A DNA stretch of 46,774 bases from Actinomycetota bacterium (GTDB taxonomy: Bacteria; Actinomycetota; Actinomycetes; S36-B12): positions 1-46,774 of the forward strand of contig JAFMFD010000011.1 of assembly GCA_017856385.1 (NCBI GenBank), given 5' to 3'. The notes under the pieces were generated by a model. The model saw only the letters and a program-made list of their open reading frames with translations, searched no databases and was not told the origin of the DNA. Numbering within the stretch: the stretch's first letter is position 1; each line of letters starts with the position of its first letter. Shown piece after piece: positions 5,951 to 26,903 of the stretch. Made by a program: the position numbers and the translations under genes.

Positions 5951-6628
5951 GTGGCCGTGATCGGCGTGGACGGGTACCGGGGCGGTTGGGTGGCCGCACG
6001 CGTCACGGGGTCGGCCGCCTCCGCGACGGTCATGTGGGCCACCTGCAGCGTCGGCGCCATAAGTGAACTGCTGGACCCGGCCTGCGTCGTCGGCATCGAC
6101 ATGCCCATCGGTCTCGCCGACTCCGGCTGGCGCGCGTGCGACCAGCACGCCAAGCAGGTCCTCGGCCGCGCCGGGTCCCGGGTGTTCCTGACGCCGCCGC
6201 GCGCGGTGCTGGAGCTCGGGATGGGCGCGCCCAACGCCGTCGTGCAGGAGCGCAGCCGTGCCCTGACCGGGCAGGGCACGAGTCGCCAGGCAATGGCGCT
6301 CTCCGAGCGCATCCTGGTGCTGGACTCGGCCCTCACCCGGCACCGTGGTCGCGACGTCATCGAGGTGCATCCCGAGTTGTCGTTCGCGCAGCTGGCCGGC
6401 ACGGTGCTCGCCCCGAAGACCACCGCGGCGGGGGTCGGCCAGCGCATCGCAGCGCTGGGTGCCTGGCTTCCCGGCGTGGTCGTCGCCCTTGCGCATGCCC
6501 CCGCGGACGTCCCCGTCGACGATGCGCTCGACGCCCTCGCCTGCGCATGGACCGCCCAGCGCTGGGAGGCTGGCACCGCAGTGACCGTGCCCGAGGATCG
6601 CGACACCGGGCCGTTCATCGCGACGTAG
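5951..6628 (+). CDS. DUF429 protein, predicted RNase H-fold nuclease-like
   Basis: A 225-residue protein of the DUF429 family: 'VIGVDGYRGGWVAARV' at the N-terminus, 'VVGIDMPIGLAD' near residue 40, 'RVFLTPPRAVLE', 'VIEVHPELSFAQLAG' and 'DDALDALACAWTAQRW' at the C-terminus. The conserved aspartates and glutamate form an RNase H-like acidic set, which is why a nuclease function has been predicted for the family; no activity is established. The GTG start at 5951 is the first that leaves the DUF429 core intact and not overlapping the divergent glycosylase. The stop codon lies inside an 18-bp tandem repeat. Confidence 0.8.
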   Translation: MAVIGVDGYRGGWVAARVTGSAASATVMWATCSVGAISELLDPACVVGIDMPIGLADSGWRACDQHAKQVLGRAGSRVFLTPPRAVLELGMGAPNAVVQERSRALTGQGTSRQAMALSERILVLDSALTRHRGRDVIEVHPELSFAQLAGTVLAPKTTAAGVGQRIAALGAWLPGVVVALAHAPADVPVDDALDALACAWTAQRWEAGTAVTVPEDRDTGPFIAT

Positions 6629-6667
6629 CCCTGAATCGCGAACCAGACCTTCATCGCGACGTAGCGG
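6614..6667 (+). repeat. Three 18-bp degenerate tandem units at the end of the DUF429 gene
   Basis: Units begin at 6614, 6632 and 6650. The first and third share 16 consecutive bases (TTCATCGCGACGTAGC); the middle one keeps ATCGCGA. The DUF429 stop codon lies in the first unit. It looks like a local duplication in the 3' untranslated region between two convergent genes. Confidence 0.7.
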
Positions 6668-6685
6668 GCCCGGGCGGCAGGACGC

Positions 6686-7315
6686 TCAGTCGAAGATCGG
6701 GTCGACGGTGCGGGTGCGCTTGAGTTCGAAGAAGCCGGGTGTCCCCGCGACGAGCACGCAGCCGTCCCAGAGCAGACCTGCCGCCTCACCCTTCGGCGCC
6801 GGACTGATCACGGGCCCGAAGAAGGCGACGGGCGAGCCGTCCGGCCCCGGGAACGCCACCACGGGGGTGCCGACGTCCTCACCGACCAGGGCGATGCCCG
6901 CGGCATGGCTGACGCGCAGGGCCTCGTCCACCTGCGTGGTCCCCATCACGTCGGCGAGCCCTGCTGGCAGGCCCACCTCCTCGAGCGCCTCGCGGCAGAT
7001 CGACTCGTAGTCACTGCGGGCCTGCAGATGGATGCGGGATCCCAGCGCCGTGTAGAGCGGAAGCACGACCTCGTCACCCGACTGCTTTTGCGCCGCGACG
7101 ACCACGCGCACCGGACCCCAGGCCTTCTCGATGAGCTCCTCGTACTCGGGTGTGAGATCACGCCCCTCGTTGAGGACGGCGAGGCTCATGACGTGCCAGC
7201 GCACCTGCACGTCCCGCACCTGCTCGACCTCGAGCATCCACCGCGAGGTCATCCATGCCCAGGGGCACAGGGGGTCGAACCAGAAGTCGGCCGTCAGCCG
7301 CGATGCGGAGGTCAT
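6686..7315 (-). CDS. DsbA-family protein, mycothiol-dependent nitroreductase (Rv2466c)-like
   Basis: A 209-residue thioredoxin-fold protein with an inserted helical domain. It starts 'ADFWFDPLCPWAWMTSRWMLEVE', the actinobacterial DsbA/FrnE-like pattern used by mycothiol-linked reductases of the Rv2466c type. The active-site motif is C-P-W-A, so the second cysteine of a CxxC pair is missing; a monothiol mechanism using mycothiol is therefore expected rather than disulfide oxidation. There is no signal peptide, so it is cytoplasmic. It is divergent from pepN, with starts 17 bp apart. Confidence 0.8.
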   Translation of the reverse strand: MTSASRLTADFWFDPLCPWAWMTSRWMLEVEQVRDVQVRWHVMSLAVLNEGRDLTPEYEELIEKAWGPVRVVVAAQKQSGDEVVLPLYTALGSRIHLQARSDYESICREALEEVGLPAGLADVMGTTQVDEALRVSHAAGIALVGEDVGTPVVAFPGPDGSPVAFFGPVISPAPKGEAAGLLWDGCVLVAGTPGFFELKRTRTVDPIFD

Positions 7316-7332
7316 AGTGGTTGGATTCCATC

Positions 7333-9888
7333 ATGAGCGCCTCCGAGAACATCACCCGGGCCGAGGCCGCGGAGCGGTCCGCACTGGTCGCCGTCGACTC
7401 CTACGAGGTCACCCTCGACGTCGCGACAGCCGAGCCGACCTTCCGGTCCGTCACGACGGTCCGCTTCACCTGCCGGGAACCCGGCTCTGCGACGTGGCTT
7501 GACCTCATCGCCGACCGAGTCGACTCCGTGGTGCTGAACGGCGAGGCGCTCGACGTCGAGGCAGTCGTGCAGGGCCCGCGGATCCTCCTGCCCGGGCTGC
7601 AGGCCGACAACGTCGTCACTGTCGATGCCACGTGCCTGTTCATGAACACCGGCGAGGGCCTGCACCGCTTCGTCGATCCCGTCGACGACGAGACGTACCT
7701 CTACACGCAGTTCGAGTCGGCGGACTCGCGGCGCATGTACGCCGTCTTCGAGCAGCCCGACCTGAAGGCGACCTTCCAGCTCACTGTCACCGCTCCGTCA
7801 CACTGGCAGCTAGTGAGTAACGCACCAAGCCCCACCCCGACCGACCACGGCGATGGCACCGCCACCTGGGCCTTCGAGCCGACCGCGCGCATGTCGACGT
7901 ACATCACCGCTCTCGTCGCCGGCCCCTACCACCGGGTCGAGGACTCCTACACCGGCCCGCACGGCACGTACCCGCTCGGCGTGTACTGCCGCGCCTCCCT
8001 GGCGCAGTACCTCGACGCCGACGACATCCTGCTGCTCACCAAGCAGGGCTTCGCCTTCTTCGAGGAGCAGTTCCAGACGCCGTATCCCTTCGGCAAGTAC
8101 GACCAGCTGTTCGTCCCCGAGTTCAACGCAGGGGCGATGGAGAACGCGGGGTGCGTCACCTTCCTCGAGGACCTGGTCTTCCGGTCGCGCGTGACCGACG
8201 CCGCCTACGAGCAGCGCGCGAACACGATCCTGCACGAGCTGGCCCACATGTGGTTCGGCAATCTCGTCACGATGAGGTGGTGGGACGACCTGTGGCTCAA
8301 CGAGTCGTTCGCCGAGTGGGCCGCCCACTGGGCGAATGTCAATGCCACCCGCTACACCGACGCGTGGACCACCTTCGCCAACCTGCGCAAGGCGTGGGCC
8401 TACCGGCAGGACCAGCTGCCCTCCACACACCCGATCGCCGCCGACATGGTCGACCTCGATGCCGTTCGCGTGAACTTCGACGGCATCACGTACGCGAAGG
8501 GGGCCTCGGCGCTGCGCCAGCTGGTCGCGTGGGTCGGCGAGGCGGAGTTCCTCGCCGGGGTGCGCAACTACTTCGCCAAGCACGCCTGGGGCAACACTGA
8601 ACTGCGAGACCTGCTGGTCGAGCTCGAGGCCACCAGCGGACGCGACCTGTCCGAGTGGACGCGCGAGTGGCTGCAGACCAGCGGGGTGAACCTGCTGCGT
8701 CCGTCGATCCGCATGGCCGATGACGACGTCATCGCCGGCGTCGTCATCGAGCAGGAGCCTCCGTCGGTGCCCGAGGGGATCGCACCCACCCTGCGGTCGC
8801 ACCGGGTCGGCATCGGCGTGTACGACCTGGCCGACAGCGCGCTTGTGCTGCGCGAGCGGGTGGAGGTCGATGTCGTGGGTGCGCGGACCGAGGTCCCGGC
8901 ACTGGCCGGGGCACGGCGCCCCGACCTGCTGCTGGTGAATGACGGCGACCTGACCTTTGCGAAGGTCCGTCTCGACGAGCGCTCCTGGCGCACGGCCGTC
9001 GAGCATCTCGGCAGCCTGTCCGACCCGCTCGCACGCGCCGTGATCTGGAGCGCCGCCTGGGACATGACCCGCGATGCGGAGGTCTCGACCGGCGACTTCC
9101 TGTCCCTCGTGCTGTCGGGCATCGGCGCCGAGACCGACATCGGCGTGGTGCAGGGCGTGCTGCGCCAGCTGCGCACCGCGATCGACGTGTACTCGGCACC
9201 CGGTCACCGCGACGAGTACCTCACCCGGCTTGCCGACGCCGCACGCCTGCACGCTCAGGAGTCGGCCGAGGGAAGCGACCGGCAGCTCGCCTTCGCGCGT
9301 GCGTTCGCCGCGGCGGCCACCACGCCGGAGCAACTCGGCACTGTGGCCGCGCTCCTCGACGGCTCCCTTGAGTGGGCTGGACTGGTGATCGACACCGACC
9401 TGCGGTGGTTCCTGCTCCAGCAGCTCGTCGGTGCCGGACTCCGGGAAGACGACGCCATCGAGGCTGAGGTGGCGCAGGACGACACCGCGACCGGTCGACG
9501 TCAGGCAGCGCTCGCCCGCGCCCTGCGTCCGACGCCGGCCGCCAAGGAGCTCGCCTGGGCCGCCATCCTCGACCGCCCGGACCTGCCGAACGCGATCATC
9601 GAGGCCACGATCGGCGGCTTCATGGATCCCGGACAGTCGGACCTGCTGCGTCCGTACCGGGACCGCTACTTCGCCGCCCTGCCGTCGGTGTGGCAGACGC
9701 GCACGATGGAGATCGCCCAGTCGGTGACGATGGGCCTGTACCCGATGTTCCTCGTCGAGGAGCAGACCCTCGCCGCGACGGATGCCTTCCTGGCGCAGGA
9801 CGGACTGTCGTCCGCGTGCCGGCGCCTGGTCACCGAGGGCCGCGACGGCGTCGTCCGGGCCATGCGGGCCCAGCAGGCCGACACCTGA
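7333..9888 (+). CDS. pepN: Aminopeptidase N, M1 family
   Basis: An 851-residue zinc metallopeptidase that removes N-terminal residues from peptides in the cytoplasm. The substrate-anchoring exopeptidase motif GAMEN appears in 'FNAGAMENAGCVTF'. The zinc site is His301-Glu302-x-x-His305 with Glu324 eighteen residues on ('HELAHMWFGNLVTMRW...LWLNESFAEW'). A Tyr for transition-state stabilisation probably lies in 'FDGITYAKGASAL'. The last ~330 residues form the helical ERAP1-like C-terminal domain. Length matches actinobacterial PepN (about 850). A TTG at 7321 in the same frame is a possible but less likely start. The gene ends 5 bp before a very long hairpin that may serve as its terminator. Confidence 0.95.
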   Translation: MSASENITRAEAAERSALVAVDSYEVTLDVATAEPTFRSVTTVRFTCREPGSATWLDLIADRVDSVVLNGEALDVEAVVQGPRILLPGLQADNVVTVDATCLFMNTGEGLHRFVDPVDDETYLYTQFESADSRRMYAVFEQPDLKATFQLTVTAPSHWQLVSNAPSPTPTDHGDGTATWAFEPTARMSTYITALVAGPYHRVEDSYTGPHGTYPLGVYCRASLAQYLDADDILLLTKQGFAFFEEQFQTPYPFGKYDQLFVPEFNAGAMENAGCVTFLEDLVFRSRVTDAAYEQRANTILHELAHMWFGNLVTMRWWDDLWLNESFAEWAAHWANVNATRYTDAWTTFANLRKAWAYRQDQLPSTHPIAADMVDLDAVRVNFDGITYAKGASALRQLVAWVGEAEFLAGVRNYFAKHAWGNTELRDLLVELEATSGRDLSEWTREWLQTSGVNLLRPSIRMADDDVIAGVVIEQEPPSVPEGIAPTLRSHRVGIGVYDLADSALVLRERVEVDVVGARTEVPALAGARRPDLLLVNDGDLTFAKVRLDERSWRTAVEHLGSLSDPLARAVIWSAAWDMTRDAEVSTGDFLSLVLSGIGAETDIGVVQGVLRQLRTAIDVYSAPGHRDEYLTRLADAARLHAQESAEGSDRQLAFARAFAAAATTPEQLGTVAALLDGSLEWAGLVIDTDLRWFLLQQLVGAGLREDDAIEAEVAQDDTATGRRQAALARALRPTPAAKELAWAAILDRPDLPNAIIEATIGGFMDPGQSDLLRPYRDRYFAALPSVWQTRTMEIAQSVTMGLYPMFLVEEQTLAATDAFLAQDGLSSACRRLVTEGRDGVVRAMRAQQADT

Positions 9889-9892
9889 CGCC

Positions 9893-9976
9893 CCCTCCCT
9901 GCTCGCGAGCGGGCGGTTACCGGGCCGGTGCGCCCGCACTTCGGCCCGGTAACCGCCCGCTCGCGGGTAGGGAGGG
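9893..9976. repeat. Long imperfect palindrome H1 between pepN and the DUF559 gene
   Basis: Two 34-base arms (9893-9926 and 9943-9976) are complementary except at two positions, around a 16-base centre that can form a small inner hairpin (GTGC-gccc-GCAC). The outer part contains CGCGAGCGGGC, shared with the second palindrome at 10989. H1 begins 5 bp after the pepN stop and also encodes the last ~19 codons and the TAA of the DUF559 gene on the minus strand. It could act as a bidirectional terminator, but its length and its shared sequence with H2 suggest a repeat family. There is no T-tract after either arm. Confidence 0.85.
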
Positions 9977-10870
9977 GTGCCAGCCCCTGAGCAGGAGGGC
10001 GGACCGGATCAACTCGAGCGCCTGCTGGGGCCGGTGGAGGTCCCTGCCGGTGAGCACGATGACGAGCCACCCGGCATCCTGCAGCAGGTTGCGGCGCACA
10101 GCATCGTGGCGTCGTTTGTCCTCGGCGAGGTGGACGGCCCCGTCGTACTCGACGATGAGCCTGAACTCCGGCCACGCGATGTCCGCACGCGCCAGCCACG
10201 ACCCGTGGTCGACGATGTCGACGTTGCAGTCGGGCCGCGGCAGGCCGGCATCGAGAATGTGGAACCTGACCACCGACTCGGCTGGCGACTCGGCTCGAGC
10301 GTCCATCCACGGCAGGACGCGCCGAGCCGACTTCACGCCGCGCCGGCCCCTTCCCCAGAAGACCATGCTCGACAGATCGCTCACGACGACGAGGCCGCGT
10401 CGCACGAAGTCATCCGCCATCGCCAGGGTGTACCCCGCGGGGACGCACGCCGCGCAGTCCAGCCACGTCCTCGCGGGCGTGGTCACGCGCACGCCGTCAC
10501 GGTCAACGACGTGGTCATCGGGAAGGAGCAGGCGTCGACCCCGTACGCCTGCTCGACGCTGCCGGTTGCTCTTCGGCAGGACGGCCACCGAAGCGGTGTC
10601 GTCGTCCCTCTGCCAGGCAGGCAGCGGCGCGCCCCAGATGCGAGCCGCGCTCAGGTCGGTGGCGACCGCCTCGGGGTTCGCCACCATGAGGACGCCCTGC
10701 AGTCGATTGCGCTCCTCGAGGGGAACACCGGCCGGCAGCCGCACCCCGCGCGTCGGGCGCGCGAAGCGACGATGCCGCAGCTGCTCGACGGTGAGACTGC
10801 CGAAACCTTCGGGGGTCACGACGAACGGATGGCGGGGGTCGGGGTCATATGCGGAGGCAGACATACCCAT
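9917..10870 (-). CDS. DUF559-domain (Vsr-like nuclease fold) protein with N-terminal wHTH/AbiEi-like region
   Basis: A 317-residue protein. The first ~150 residues ('GSLTVEQLRHRRFARPTRGVRLPAG...VTTPARTWLDCAACV') match the AbiEi-antitoxin-like region found in many actinobacterial DUF559 proteins. The C-terminal domain (about 195-300) has 'ARADIAWPEFRLIVEYDGAVHL', whose Asp and Glu fit the catalytic positions of Vsr/PD-(D/E)XK-related nucleases, then 'AVRRNLLQDAGWLVIVLTGRDL'. The final ~19 residues (HPSLPASGRLPGRSAGAPAR region) are encoded by palindrome H1, where the TAA also lies, so this tail is probably not part of the original fold. No Shine-Dalgarno is clear; the second Met at 10864 is an equally good start. 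The gene is an insertion-like unit between two convergent genes. Its biological role is unknown. Confidence 0.75.
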   Translation of the reverse strand: MGMSASAYDPDPRHPFVVTPEGFGSLTVEQLRHRRFARPTRGVRLPAGVPLEERNRLQGVLMVANPEAVATDLSAARIWGAPLPAWQRDDDTASVAVLPKSNRQRRAGVRGRRLLLPDDHVVDRDGVRVTTPARTWLDCAACVPAGYTLAMADDFVRRGLVVVSDLSSMVFWGRGRRGVKSARRVLPWMDARAESPAESVVRFHILDAGLPRPDCNVDIVDHGSWLARADIAWPEFRLIVEYDGAVHLAEDKRRHDAVRRNLLQDAGWLVIVLTGRDLHRPQQALELIRSALLLRGWHPSLPASGRLPGRSAGAPAR

Positions 10871-10913
10871 GTCATGTCATCGGCGTGGCCGCCGTGTCAC
10901 CGGGCCAGCATCA

Positions 10914-10949
10914 CCTGTGGACGGAGTCCCCCGCGCGATGCCCTGTGGA
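10914..10949 (-). promoter_or_regulatory. Paired TCCACAGG motifs upstream of the DUF559 gene
   Basis: Read on the gene's strand, TCCACAGG occurs twice (plus-strand CCTGTGGA at 10914-10921 and 10942-10949), 28 bp apart and 44-79 bp before the start. A similar pair lies upstream of ssb. Direct repeats at near three-helical-turn spacing fit a regulator binding site; the regulator is unknown. Confidence 0.4.
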
Positions 10950-10988
10950 GAACGCGCCGCCCCCCGGCGCAAGCACCCGACCCCGCCC

Positions 10989-11050
10989 CGCGAGCGGGCA
11001 CTTAGCGGGCGCTTTGCGGAGCAAAGCGGCCCGCTAAGTGCCCGCTCGCG
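10989..11050. repeat. Long palindrome H2 between the DUF559 and DUF5130 genes
   Basis: Perfect 22-base arms (10989-11010 and 11029-11050) enclose a second perfect inverted repeat, GCTTTGC-GGA-GCAAAGC (11011-11027), with one unpaired base between, so nearly 29 pairs can stack. The outer segment CGCGAGCGGGC is the same as in H1, and the right flanks are alike too (GCCCGCTCGCG followed by RGTARGGAGG). It ends about 16 bp from the DUF5130 stop and could terminate that gene. The inner halves of H1 and H2 differ completely. Confidence 0.85.
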
Positions 11051-11066
11051 AGTAAGGAGGAGGGTC

Positions 11067-11483
11067 TCAGGCGGGGTCGTCGAGGTGCAGCACCCGCGGG
11101 TGGCGCGCGTGCTCGGCGAGCATCACGATGCCCTCGCGCAGTCCGGCCGCGAGGTCACCGGCAGCGAAGCTGGACGTCATCGACAGTGCGGCCAGCTCGC
11201 AGGCCCGATCGTCGAGGTCGACGGCGACATTGACGCCCACGACGATCTCCAGCTGGCGTGCCGTCGGGCTCACCGCCACGAGGACGGTCGATGCGGGGTC
11301 CTGCAGTGCACCGTGCTCGGCGATCGCGGAGCCACGACCGTCGGGCAGGGGGCCGACGTAGAGCGCGAATCCGAAACCGCTGATGGTGCGGGCCTTCTCG
11401 AGGACGCCCTGCAGGCTGCGCCGGTCTGCCTGCGTGATCGGGGACAGCCCCGACTCGATCGCGGTCGGATCACCACCGGGCAC
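11067..11483 (-). CDS. DUF5130 family protein (TPM-like)
   Basis: A 138-residue soluble protein matching actinobacterial DUF5130: 'GFALYVGPLPDG', 'STVLVAVSPTARQLEIVVGVNVAVDLDDRACELAALSMTSSFAAGDLAAGLREGIVMLAEHA'. The fold resembles TPM-domain proteins; function is not known. GTG at 11483 was chosen because GGGAGG lies eight bases upstream; the in-frame GTG at 11492 would sit inside that Shine-Dalgarno. The gene overlaps the 3' end of the small membrane protein gene by 14 bp, so the two are co-transcribed. Confidence 0.77.
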   Translation of the reverse strand: MPGGDPTAIESGLSPITQADRRSLQGVLEKARTISGFGFALYVGPLPDGRGSAIAEHGALQDPASTVLVAVSPTARQLEIVVGVNVAVDLDDRACELAALSMTSSFAAGDLAAGLREGIVMLAEHARHPRVLHLDDPA

Positions 11484-11703
11484 TGACGCCACCTCCCGCC
11501 AGGGAGCCCGCGGGCGCGAGCTCGCTCGGCAGCCGCGAGGGGTCCGGGAGCGGGCGTGGGCTGGTCAGCAGCAGCGGGCCGCCCTCCTCGCCGGTGCCCG
11601 ACGCGGACCGCAGCCACATCGGCGCGCTCACGAGTGCGTAGAGGATGATGCCGAGGGTGATCGGCACCCCGAGGAACAGGCCTACGGCCAGCACTGGACT
11701 CAC
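11470..11703 (-). CDS. Small single-pass membrane protein, unknown function
   Basis: A 77-residue protein with one hydrophobic segment (residues 2-26, 'SPVLAVGLFLGVPITLGIILYAL') and a Pro/Gly/Ser-rich cytoplasmic or extracytoplasmic tail. I do not recognise a family beyond its frequent actinobacterial partnership with DUF5130. The GTG start at 11703 is preceded by TAGGGT at exactly 6 bp, so it is probably leaderless; that box overlaps the stop codon of malQ. It overlaps the DUF5130 gene and is likely to be co-expressed with it. Confidence 0.65.
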   Translation of the reverse strand: MSPVLAVGLFLGVPITLGIILYALVSAPMWLRSASGTGEEGGPLLLTSPRPLPDPSRLPSELAPAGSLAGGGVSARW

Positions 11704-11709
11704 GCCGAC

Positions 11710-11715
11710 ACCCTA
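11710..11715 (-). promoter_or_regulatory. -10 element (TAGGGT) for the small membrane protein/DUF5130 operon
   Basis: On the minus strand TAGGGT is followed by six bases (GTCGGC) and the GTG start at 11703. The first three bases of the box are also the TAG stop codon of malQ. Confidence 0.5.
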
Positions 11716-13896
11716 ATGGACCGCCCGCGTGAGCCTCTCCGCCTGCTCGGCCTCGGCCATGATCTCGGCCAGCAGGACCGGCCGACCGGACCCGTCGGCC
11801 AGCGGCACCCGCCAGTTGGGGTACTCCTGGTCAGTGCCCGGCTGGTTCTGCGCACGCCGGTCGCCCACGACGTCGGTCAGCCCGATGCCGACGAGGCGGG
11901 CGGGTGACGCCCCCACGGCCCGGTGCAACGCGATGACGAACTCGTCCAGGCCGGCGTCGGTCGCCAGGTCCGCATCCGCGCTCAGCCAGCCGTGCCGGCG
12001 CAGCACGTCGGCCCAGGCCACCCGGCCGGCAGCCGCGTGGGCTCGCTCCTCGGCCTCCGGCACCGTGAGCAGGCCGAGGTCGGCCCGGATGCGCACATGC
12101 TCGTCGCGCAGGTATCCCGCGGTGGGCGGCAGGTCATGGACGGTGACGCTCGCCAGCACATCGCGTCGCCAGTCATGCGGGTCACGGACGGTGCCGTCAT
12201 CCTGGTTCTCGAACCACAGGATGCTCGTGCCGAGGATGCCCCTCTCCGCGAGCGCCTGCTGGACCCAGGGCTCGACGGTGCCGAGGTCCTCGCCGACGAC
12301 GACGGCTCCCGCCCTATGCGCCTCGAGCATCAGGATGCTGAGCATCGCGTCGTGGTCAGACCGCACGAAGGTGCCGGCGGACGCTGGATGCCCGGCGGGC
12401 ACCCACCACAGGCGGAACAGGCCGATCACGTGGTCGATGCGCAGGGCCCCGGCATGCCGCAGGACGGTGCGGAGCATGTCGCGGAAGGGCACGAAGGCCT
12501 GCTCGGCGAGGGCATCGGGACGCCACGGCGGTTGGTGCCAGTTCTGGCCCAGCTGGTTGTACATGTCCGGAGGTGCGCCGACACCGATGCCGGGGGCCAG
12601 CACGTCCTGCAGCGCCCACGCATCCGCTCCCTCGGGGTGGACGCCCACAGCGAGGTCGTGCATGACCCCGAGGCGCATTCCCGCATCGACCGCTCGCCCC
12701 TGCACCGATGCGAGCTGGGAGTCCATCAGCCACTGCATCCAGCGATGGAAGTCGACGAGCGGCTCGTAGTCGTCGCGGAAGGCTGCCACCGCAGGACTCC
12801 CGGGATGGCCGAGCTCCTCGGGCCACTCGGACGGGTGGCCGTGGATGTCAGTGATCGCGCACCACGTCGCGAAGTCCCGCAGCCCTGGTCCCTGGCTCTC
12901 GACGTACGCCTGGTACGCCGCCTCGCGGACATCGTCGCGCCGGAGCACATGGATCGCCGACAGCGCTGCGCGCTTGACCGCCCACACCGCGTCACGATCG
13001 AGCAGGTCGTCCGTGTGGTCGAGCTGACGCAGGTGCTCGGCCTGCTCCTCGATGAACTCCGCACGTGAGCCGGCGAGCCGCTGCCACTCCGGGATGTCCT
13101 CGATGCGCAGGTAGATCGGATTGGCGAAGCGGCGCGTGACGGGCAGGTAGGGCGAGGACTGCATCGGCGGAACGGGTGATGCGGCGTGCAGCGGATTGAT
13201 GAGCACGAAGCCGGCACCGAGCCGCTCGGCACTCCACGCGGCGAGGTCGCCGAGGTCGTGCAGGTCGCCCAGGCCCCAGGACTGCGCCGACCGCATCGCG
13301 TACAGCTGCGTCATGAACCCCCACTGCCGGTCCCCGATCAGCGCATCCGGGTCGAGGCGCTCGGGGGCGACGACCACCGGGCTCGAGGCGGACATGGTCC
13401 CGCAGGCGGCGTGCACGGTGTGCCAACCGAGGGGAAGGCTTCCGGGCAGCCGGAAGCTCGCCTCGCCGACGCGGGTGACGTGGAGCTCGCCAGGCTCCGA
13501 GCCCCAGGCCCCCTCGACATCGACGGGATCGACCCAGTGGTCGATCTGGTCGAGCGCGAGGCGCTCCCCGCCCTCGAGCTCCAGCCAGCATTCGACAGGC
13601 TCGCCGTCGGGCACGTGCACCCACAGCCGCTGGTCCGCGCCCTGTCGCATGACGAAAACGGACGGGAGCATGCGACGCCAGTCGCGCAGCTGCCTGTCAC
13701 GCAGAGCGGCGGCGATCGCCTCGGGTGTGCTGACGTCGAGGCCGAGGGCCACGAGCACCGCGCTGACCGTCGCGGCACCGACCTGGACGAGGGTGCCGCC
13801 CTGGTCCCAGTACTCGGTGGCGACGCCGTAGGCATCGGCGAGCCGGCGCAGGTCCTCCGGGACGGGCTGCCATGCGGGGGCGTCGGGCTCGCTCAC
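11713..13896 (-). CDS. malQ: 4-alpha-glucanotransferase (amylomaltase, GH77)
   Basis: A 727-residue GH77 enzyme that transfers alpha-1,4-glucan segments in maltodextrin/glycogen metabolism in the cytoplasm. The GH77 core has 'LRIDHVIGLFRLWWVPAG' (nucleophile Asp), 'VVVGEDLGTVEPWVQQAL' (acid/base Glu), 'SPYLPVTRRFANPIYLRIED' and 'NQPGTDQEYPNWRVPLAD'. The N-terminal ~150 residues form an extra beta-domain, as in the long MalQ of actinobacteria and enterobacteria (about 700 residues). The GTG at 13896 overlaps the amidase stop (GTGA) and has GGAGG upstream, so it was chosen over the ATG at 13923. Confidence 0.93.
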   Translation of the reverse strand: MSEPDAPAWQPVPEDLRRLADAYGVATEYWDQGGTLVQVGAATVSAVLVALGLDVSTPEAIAAALRDRQLRDWRRMLPSVFVMRQGADQRLWVHVPDGEPVECWLELEGGERLALDQIDHWVDPVDVEGAWGSEPGELHVTRVGEASFRLPGSLPLGWHTVHAACGTMSASSPVVVAPERLDPDALIGDRQWGFMTQLYAMRSAQSWGLGDLHDLGDLAAWSAERLGAGFVLINPLHAASPVPPMQSSPYLPVTRRFANPIYLRIEDIPEWQRLAGSRAEFIEEQAEHLRQLDHTDDLLDRDAVWAVKRAALSAIHVLRRDDVREAAYQAYVESQGPGLRDFATWCAITDIHGHPSEWPEELGHPGSPAVAAFRDDYEPLVDFHRWMQWLMDSQLASVQGRAVDAGMRLGVMHDLAVGVHPEGADAWALQDVLAPGIGVGAPPDMYNQLGQNWHQPPWRPDALAEQAFVPFRDMLRTVLRHAGALRIDHVIGLFRLWWVPAGHPASAGTFVRSDHDAMLSILMLEAHRAGAVVVGEDLGTVEPWVQQALAERGILGTSILWFENQDDGTVRDPHDWRRDVLASVTVHDLPPTAGYLRDEHVRIRADLGLLTVPEAEERAHAAAGRVAWADVLRRHGWLSADADLATDAGLDEFVIALHRAVGASPARLVGIGLTDVVGDRRAQNQPGTDQEYPNWRVPLADGSGRPVLLAEIMAEAEQAERLTRAVH

Positions 13897-15275
13897 CAGA
13901 CCTCCGGGTGACGGGACGCCCACGGGCGGGCGTGCTCGATGCGGGCCGACAGGGCCAGCAGCTGGGCCTCGCGGTGCGGCCGCCCCACCAGCTGCACGCC
14001 GACGGGCAGGCCCGCGGCCGTCCAGTGCACCGGCAGCGAGACCGCGGGCTGCCCCGTCATGTTGTAGGGAGCGGTGTACGGCGTGAAGGCCTTCTGCATC
14101 TCGAAATCCCCTGCCGGGTCGTCATCGTCGCGCAGTCCCCCTACTGGGGCCGGCAGCTGCGCCAGTGTGGGAGTGATGACGATGTCGACATGGGCCGTGG
14201 CGCGTAGCGCGCGGTGGCTGGCCTCCTCCATCAGGCGCGCCGCCTCCTCCACCTCGTGAGCGGCAAGCGCGAGGCCTCGCTCACGGAGCCAGCGCGTCAG
14301 CGGGCGCAGGCCCGCGACCTGCGCGTCGTTCAGGGGGATGCGCGCAGCCCCAGCGGCCCACACGCGTTCGAAGACGGGGATCTGGTCGATGCTGACCGGG
14401 ACGTCGAGGTCGACCAGGCGGTGGCCCATCGACTCCAGCAGCAGGCAGGTGTCTTCCCACGCCGCGAGCACCTCAGGGTCGGGCACGGTGTCCGCGACGA
14501 CCGGGATTCCGCAACGGCCGATGACGAGCGACGGGACGTCGGCGTCGAGCATGCGCACGTACGTGTCGTCACGCTCGGCCATGACGCCGAGCAGGGCTGC
14601 CGCGTCGGCCACGGTGCGCGCGAGCGGCCCCATGACGGCGAGGCGGCCCGGTCCGTCGGGGAGCGGCCCGTTGGAGATCAGGCCGCGGGTCGGCTTCAGG
14701 CCGACGAGGCCGCAGCAGCTCGCCGGGATGCGGATCGACCCGCCTCCGTCGGACCCCTGGGCCACTGCGGCGAGACCCGCGGCGACCGCGACCGCTGCAC
14801 CGCCGCTGGATCCCCCGGCGCCGCGCGTCAGGTCCCACGGCGTGCGGGCGTGGGGGCCGATGTCGCTCTCGGTGTAGCACGGCAGGCCGAACTCCGGCGT
14901 CGTCGTCTTGCCCAGCAGGACGGTGCCGCCCGACCGCATCGCGGCCACGACGTCATCATCCGTCGTCGGCACGAGCTCCAGGACGGTCGTGCCGAACCGA
15001 GTGAGGACGCCTGCCGTCTGGTTGAGATCCTTGACCGGCACAACGACACCGTGCAGGACGGGCAGGCGGCTCGGATCCTCGGCCTGTGCCACCGCTCGGT
15101 CCGCTGCCGCGGCCTGCTCGAGCGCGAGGTCGTCGCACAGCAGCGCGTAGGCACCGACCGACTCGTTCAGTCGATGGGCGCGCTCGAGATAGTGGCGGGT
15201 CAGCTCGACCGCCGAGATCTCGCGGGTGCGGATCGCCGAGGCCTGCTCGAGAGCGGTCAGGTCGTGCAGCCCCAT
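13893..15275 (-). CDS. Amidase signature family hydrolase
   Basis: A 460-residue amidase-signature enzyme. The Ser-cisSer-Lys triad is visible: Lys in '[13 protein letters not shown]', the cis-Ser in '[16 protein letters not shown]', and the nucleophilic Ser in '[26 protein letters not shown]'. No GatB or GatC gene is near, so it is a stand-alone amidase rather than part of the tRNA amidotransferase. The substrate (amide, peptide amide or aryl amide) is unknown. It is the first gene of a pair with malQ (GTGA overlap). The ATG start is preceded by TAGGGT at 6 bp, so it is probably leaderless. Confidence 0.9.
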
Positions 15276-26827: not shown

Positions 26828-26903
26828 GCGCCCGTAGCTCAACGGATAGAGCAACCGGTTTCTACCCGGTCGGTTGAGGGTTCGAGTCCTTCCGGGCGCA
26901 CCA
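26828..26903 (+). tRNA. tRNA-Arg (anticodon TCT)
   Basis: Acceptor GCGCCCG pairs with CGGGCGC (26893-26899). The D-arm GCTC/GAGC encloses AACGGATA. The anticodon stem ACCGG/CCGGT holds the loop TTTCTAC, giving anticodon TCT at 26861-26863. The T-loop is TTCGAGT with a five-pair stem. Discriminator A is at 26900 and CCA is encoded (26901-26903). It reads AGA, a rare codon in this GC-rich genome. Confidence 0.95.

Follow-up and report, generated by a model that had tools for sequence, protein, structure and literature searches.

The window analyzed here, a 46,774-nucleotide stretch from an actinobacterium of the lineage S36-B12 (contig JAFMFD010000011.1 of assembly GCA_017856385.1; genome G000 below), carries a gene for a DUF559 protein of 317 amino acids (9917 to 10870, minus strand) between two large palindromes, H1 and H2. 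Its left neighbor, with which it is convergent, encodes a PepN-type M1 peptidase (7321 to 9888, plus strand), and its right neighbor encodes a DUF5130 protein (11067 to 11492, minus strand). That the gene is a DUF559 nuclease-like one, as a preliminary description of this DNA had claimed, was borne out by a Pfam match (PF04480) of 24.1 bits against a cutoff of 20.6. Because the DUF559 reading frame terminates within H1 (stop codon at the complement of 9917 to 9919), the loop and right arm of H1 are coding. Within the window, Rfam's gathering score was reached only by a tRNA gene (26828 to 26900); no Rfam intron family was matched.

H1 (9892 to 9977, no strand assigned) has two 36-nt arms (9892 to 9927 and 9942 to 9977), 94% complementary and separated by a 14-nt spacer, while the 22-nt arms of H2 (10989 to 11050, also without strand; arms 10989 to 11010 and 11029 to 11050) are perfect around an 18-nt spacer. 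Folded as single-stranded DNA, H1 reached -54.3 kcal/mol (z of -12.0) and H2, with an inner stem, -42.5 kcal/mol (z of -9.2), and in neither case did any of 200 shuffles fold as well. The two giant hairpins described earlier are real and far beyond chance. So is their common outer sequence: the outer part and right flank (9942 to 9975 versus 11027 to 11060) are 85% identical, including the shared flanks CGGGTAGGGAGG of H1 (9964 to 9975) and CGAGTAAGGAGG of H2 (11049 to 11060), both on the plus strand and both of family D1. Outside the arms, complementarity of the flanks was about that expected from shuffling. A de novo hairpin scan of the window and seven other G000 stretches, all of them picked for holding or nearly holding a family copy, gave 10 hairpins scoring at least 15, 7 of which were family copies; none of the 10 lay wholly within a called gene, and five Markov shuffles of the window gave none. 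One G000 hairpin of unrelated sequence, with 18-bp arms, lies between two same-strand genes (L181, 4240 to 4282).

The protein has two recognizable parts. In a structure model with a mean pLDDT of 74 (residues 1 to 48 under 50), residues 50 to 190 resemble the AbiEi antitoxin (6y8q_A; Z of 12.0, rmsd of 3.7 over 130 residues), and the PADLOC AbiEi profile also matched (8e-9). Residues 193 to 297 of the model resemble the homing endonuclease I-Bth0305I (3r3p_A; Z of 13.1, rmsd of 2.2 over 95 residues) and Vsr (1cw0_A; Z of 11.1), though Foldseek placed 3r3p only at an E value of 0.05, below three mitoribosome chains, and returned nothing at 0.001. The only NCBIfam match fell far under its cutoff, and Y1 models did not match the protein. 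A working nuclease nonetheless seems likely from the modeled fold, because E198, D230, E241, and D243 are invariant throughout the strict set (32 of 32 proteins) and almost invariant in the remaining 36.

H1 and H2 belong to a dispersed repeat family, with 58-bp cores at 9906 to 9963 and 10991 to 11048 (CGAG...CTCG). The strict pattern CGAGYGGGC-N22..42-GCCCRCTCG occurs eight times in G000, each copy 58 bp long, and the reversed pattern once; an arm search gave an identical 41-nt offset in all eight pairs, and a degenerate ninth copy on contig C144 was left out of this count. Counting palindromes beside DUF559 genes, as had been suggested, placed H1 and H2 in this eight-copy family but gave no one-to-one tie, as six of the eight strict copies lie away from a DUF559 gene. 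Across 40 genomes the family was found eight times in G000, 17 times in G002, three times in G009, and once each in G005, G021, and G023, with no copies in the remaining 34. Outside G000, the protein most similar to that of the window is encoded in G002, by a gene that is itself enclosed by two copies of the H1/H2 family. G009, which shares about 95% identity with G002 at two loci, has three strict copies, and a close homologue of the cognate gene was absent among the matches listed, which we count against the explanation preferred below. Two G002 copies are common to G009, and turnover is therefore incomplete between these sister genomes.

Other genomes of the genus have families of their own. 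G001 contains 26 two-arm copies and two single arms of a family with no copies in the 13 other genus genomes (reversed-pattern control, 0), and two of the 26 copies bracket one DUF559 gene there. A third family is sparser, with at most five arms per strand per genome, and occurs in 6 of the 14 genus genomes. G000 itself has a second DUF559 homologue on contig C55 (L255, G000:C55:4720-9373), detected by protein search and missed by Pfam search, with a different matched palindrome pair of the CCTGCAGTTCGCGTCAC type. Farther afield, Curtobacterium loci (L067 at 6046 to 6698, L060, L063, L095, and L099) hold clusters of two to five such palindromes spanning about 0.3 to 2.2 kb. Four Pseudomonas loci that fit the pattern (L082, L104, L113, and L123) resemble known Pseudomonas REP doublets, and their likeness to the actinobacterial arms may be due to chance.

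The suspected link between DUF559 genes and palindromes holds well outside the window. Of 166 genomes in the order, 82 have homologues of the window protein, and 70 loci were read (30 as returned and 40 picked from the ranked homologue list), 10 of which were left out of flank tests for short flanks. Upstream and downstream flanks aligned with a score of at least 25 at 47 of the 60 DUF559 loci and at none of 195 control genes, the cut having been fixed once the control maximum of 23.7 was known; at a cut of 20 the counts were 51 of 60 and 7 of 195. Palindromes on both sides that match each other were present at 32 of the 60 loci and at none of the 195 controls; their median length was 61, and at the median the downstream one starts 2 nt short of the stop codon's end (range, -74 to 158). 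These locus counts are not independent, because many rows are related (L241 nearly duplicates L242, and L226 nearly duplicates L247). Short tandem repeats account for the flank match in at least L215, L243, and L246, and these three and L248 have such repeats in place of, or beside, the palindrome. The 13 loci without matched flanks at the cut of 25 count against the preferred explanation; L205 misses this cut owing to start-codon choice, and its palindrome pair is visible. Protein identity and palindrome-arm similarity were correlated across 56 loci (Mantel r of 0.62, reached in 0 of 2,000 permutations), after removal of proteins under 230 amino acids and those with a best palindrome score under 13, so that palindrome matching follows protein lineage.

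More distant samples gave a more uneven picture. When loci were picked by palindrome pattern alone, 5 of at least 119 stretches, chance matches included, held a DUF559 relative among the matches listed (two Curtobacterium, Agromyces, Frigoribacterium, and Herbiconiux), and near flanks matched at 25 or above in two of these (Herbiconiux and Agromyces). Six records of a plasmid collection carried a DUF559 relative, with flanks matching at 28 or above in the three from Arthrobacter and the two from Tsukamurella and not in the one from Nonomuraea; at one plasmid locus (L330) the flank match is an inverted repeat with no palindrome above threshold. Herbiconiux, Agromyces, Arthrobacter, and Tsukamurella thus supply named examples of matched flanks. 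In a phylum-wide draw (30 loci read from 59 genomes with a match, 3 removed at contig ends), matched flanks were present at 7 of the 17 loci with long DUF559 proteins, in part as tandem repeats, and at 0 of the 10 with short proteins (under 250 amino acids); the low share among long proteins also counts against the explanation preferred below. The flank bond therefore goes with the long architecture that joins AbiEi-like and DUF559 parts and is not universal. A phage-borne origin found no support in viral contigs (one weak locus) or a phage collection (two partial matches).

We consider it somewhat probable that H1, the DUF559 gene, and H2 together are the part of a nuclease-palindrome system that carries its gene, and that this system operates in the manner of RAYT/REPIN without belonging to it, because the organization is that of REPINs and RAYTs while the enzyme is unrelated and no Y1 gene was found in the 14 genus genomes. 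In such a system the DUF559 protein would recognize a half-site of about 20 nt that is present twice, inverted and a constant distance apart (GAG to CTC spanning 56 bp in two families), and would probably nick or cut at the half-sites. Cutting would then drive the copying, or the repair-coupled upkeep, of palindromes at the 3' ends of genes, with the DUF559 gene itself housed between two palindrome copies. The system may either spread selfishly or have been domesticated for host use.

The main competing idea, which we regard as unlikely, is a homing-type element: the palindrome would be the target, the DUF559 homing gene would enter solo palindromes, and recombination between the flanking copies would restore the solo state. 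The nuclease domain is indeed closest to I-Bth0305I (Z of 13.1), and occupied and unoccupied sites exist. The preliminary description had proposed comparing the PepN-DUF5130 junction among relatives, and the two genes are adjacent without a DUF559 gene in G001, G008, G011, and G012. A solo palindrome of the resident family lies at this junction in G001 (by family search) and G012 (by eye) and none in G008 or G011, versus a DUF559 unit in G000 and also in G005. G010 has the unit on two contigs, one reaching pepN and the other reaching the next gene (window 11713 to 13923, MalQ-like by eye), and in G013 the unit was seen from the side of the MalQ-like gene only; DUF5130 was not detected in either of these genomes. 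Near the same junction, two contigs end less than 250 bases from the DUF5130 gene (L039, G004:C62; L040, G003:C73), as repeats could cause. Elsewhere, the flanks of a G001 solo site (L383) match those of a DUF559 unit in G080 on both sides, and several other solo sites match on one side. Against homing, however, the palindrome is doubled and not interrupted, so that the unit's own sites would remain cuttable, and homing of the gene alone leaves 24 further G001 copies with near-identical arms unexplained.

The history of individual sites is mixed. In a DUF559 tree of 39 sequences (rows under 125 bits, L250, and L219 left out), a single clade of the five sequences from the PepN place was rejected (AU P = 0.0005), which suggests at least two arrivals there; a clade of the four other than that of the window was possible (P = 0.148). 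Vertical inheritance in synteny across all relatives, which by the preliminary description would have refuted its reading, was thus contradicted both by this test and by the four junctions that lack the gene. At site B (L206, L240, L241, and L242), the DUF559 genes form one group (80/80) yet have three palindrome sequences, which we count in favor of the preferred explanation; both flanks match in L206 and L241/L242, and one palindrome was found in L240. Against that explanation we count one group of DUF559 genes that, at a single site, seems to be vertically inherited. The sole clean presence/absence site is a palindrome at G002:C19 that G009:C61 lacks. The same convergent gene pair flanks the site in both genomes, which differ there by 81 bp, by gain or by loss, with no clear target duplication such as an insertion sequence or MITE would leave (at most 2 bp shared). 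At two other G002 solo sites, G009 instead carries different genes over 1.9 and 3.4 kb, and these are not clean empty sites; the extra genes (L320, 2096 to 3886; L321, 1982 to 5253) include an amidohydrolase-like one in each, by eye. A counterpart at about 95% of the G002:C59 unit was not found in G009, and at the empty junctions G009:C205 and G012:C27 a duplication is unreadable because they are only about 70% alike.

The anatomy of the copies bears on the preferred explanation and also on a different idea, that of a host function. The 26 G001 copies, each read over its whole length, measure 60 bp without exception, with arms 96.9% identical and 22-nt centers 43% identical (34% with letters shuffled). 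The corresponding values were 84% and 44% in G002, where lengths were 58 (13 copies), 57 (3), and 59 (1), and 90% and 47% in G000; from GAG to CTC, the G000 family and the G001 family alike span 56 bp. Arms are conserved and length is held while the center is free, which may be read as half-site recognition at fixed spacing. The proposed selection for self-complementarity did not hold in general: at variable positions the two G002 arms are independent (74 the same, 80 expected), although arms agreed above expectation in G000 (36 versus 28.6) and G001 (21 versus 13), to which pairing or shared descent may add. Likewise, the perfect pairing of inner halves is true of H2 but is no general rule, as G002 copies carry mismatched arms, and of the stop triplets claimed on both strands, TAA/TTA are not general either, the G002 arm consensus having none. 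The majority of copies sit close behind stop codons. Of 55 placed copies (some orthologous and some flanking DUF559 genes), 26 lie between convergent genes, 22 between genes in the same direction, 4 between divergent genes, 2 beside one unknown neighbor, and 1 inside a called gene; background convergent pairs were 7 of 43 in the window and 32 of 182 in G002 stretches, and 15 of 65 in G001 stretches, which are centered on palindromes.

Arms far more conserved than centers, and placement close behind stop codons, would also suit a DNA-binding DUF559 protein, its nuclease active or not, for which the 3'-end palindromes are roadblocks, terminators, or markers kept by selection. We hold such a role to be improbable given the patchy presence of the DUF559 gene, a family that has 26 copies in one of the 14 genus genomes and none in the others, and the gene's low codon score (32.5 over 317 codons versus 48.7 over 138 in DUF5130; a home-made script served for codon scores as for gene calls). 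There is still less to recommend a toxin-antitoxin or defense-like module, in which the AbiEi-like domain would bind the flanking palindromes as operators and solo copies would titrate the nuclease or protect against it: the AbiEi-like part is evident by profile (8e-9) and fold (6y8q_A, Z of 12.0), but the neighbors are PepN and DUF5130 with no AbiEii-like partner, and an operator is unexpected at a 3' end or at many other gene ends. Ordinary terminators flanking the gene by chance, a trivial outcome that the preliminary description had allowed for, are very improbable and were rejected, since, for all their 3'-end location and strong folding, the palindromes form a sequence-specific, fixed-length family that follows DUF559 lineage (Mantel r of 0.62), flanks matched at 47 of 60 DUF559 loci versus 0 of 195 controls, and no hairpin with a T run was found in 9700 to 11500, though termination without a T run could still occur.

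Beyond the RAYT/REPIN-like unit that we prefer, a bolder proposal is possible, which we put forward tentatively and think rather less probable than its opposite: a new class of repeat-driving system in which a type IV antitoxin-like domain with a Vsr/homing-type nuclease writes and homogenizes fixed-length palindromes at gene ends, independently of HUH enzymes, and in which protein and palindrome codiversify so fast that one genus uses different palindromes, in places at the same junction. If this were true, the combination of a free center with near-identical arms would imply writing or correction of the arms at every site, with the center following the local sequence. Dispersed palindromes served by an enzyme of their own are already known from RAYT/REPIN; were actinobacteria to have a second, nonhomologous solution, partnerships of nuclease and repeat would seem to have originated more than once. 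Such a system would also give a function to many long DUF559 proteins, and its many natural, codiversified enzyme-target pairs would be a ready set for a DNA recognition code. No earlier report of a DUF559-palindrome system was found in a search of an open-access library of papers other than preprints.

Among known systems, REPINs are described as inverted doublets in which the ends are conserved and the spacer is less so, although its length and folding are important; they are associated with specific enzyme genes (PMC3116915). RAYT genes, in a further account, are flanked by repeats that lie mostly downstream of genes, CGTC-tagged REPs apparently having no dedicated enzyme (PMC3733652). The palindromes here share the inverted doublet, the conserved ends, and the variable center of fixed length (26 of 26 copies at 60 bp, arms 97%, center 43%), and the enzyme gene here, like a RAYT gene, lies amid its own repeat family (with palindromes at 32 of the 60 loci and matched flanks at 47) with placement at 3' ends. 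The likeness to RAYT/REPIN suggested earlier therefore stands for the bracketed arrangement but not for the enzyme: the nuclease is DUF559/Vsr-like and nonhomologous, and RAYT membership was rejected, as no Y1 gene (PF01797) was found in any of the 14 genus genomes, that of the window included (1 of the 31 genomes searched had one, outside the genus). Nor is a GTAG/CGTC tag a family feature, judged by eye, with GTAG in the H1 flank, GTAA in that of H2, and, after the G001 copies, CGA or CAA, in one case CGC, and in some CGG. An integron attC identity was set aside on core motifs only. With I-Bth0305I, an EDxHD/Vsr-type homing endonuclease, the protein shares the fold of the catalytic domain (3r3p_A, Z of 13.1), but here that domain is fused to an AbiEi-like one; an EDxHD homing gene interrupts its own site, whereas here the palindromes flank the gene intact, though solo and occupied sites coincide at some junctions. 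The middle domain is like the AbiEi type IV antitoxin (6y8q_A, Z of 12.0; PADLOC, 8e-9), but unlike in AbiE it is fused to a nuclease-like domain and lies between PepN and DUF5130 with no AbiEii toxin adjoining. Finally, fold (1cw0_A, Z of 11.1) and Pfam DUF559 assignment are shared with the Vsr mismatch endonuclease, and for a Caulobacter DUF559 protein, VsrA, a role in mismatch repair has been predicted (PMC12907096); in contrast to the long proteins described here, short Vsr-like DUF559 proteins (under 250 amino acids) had matched flanks at 0 of 10 loci.
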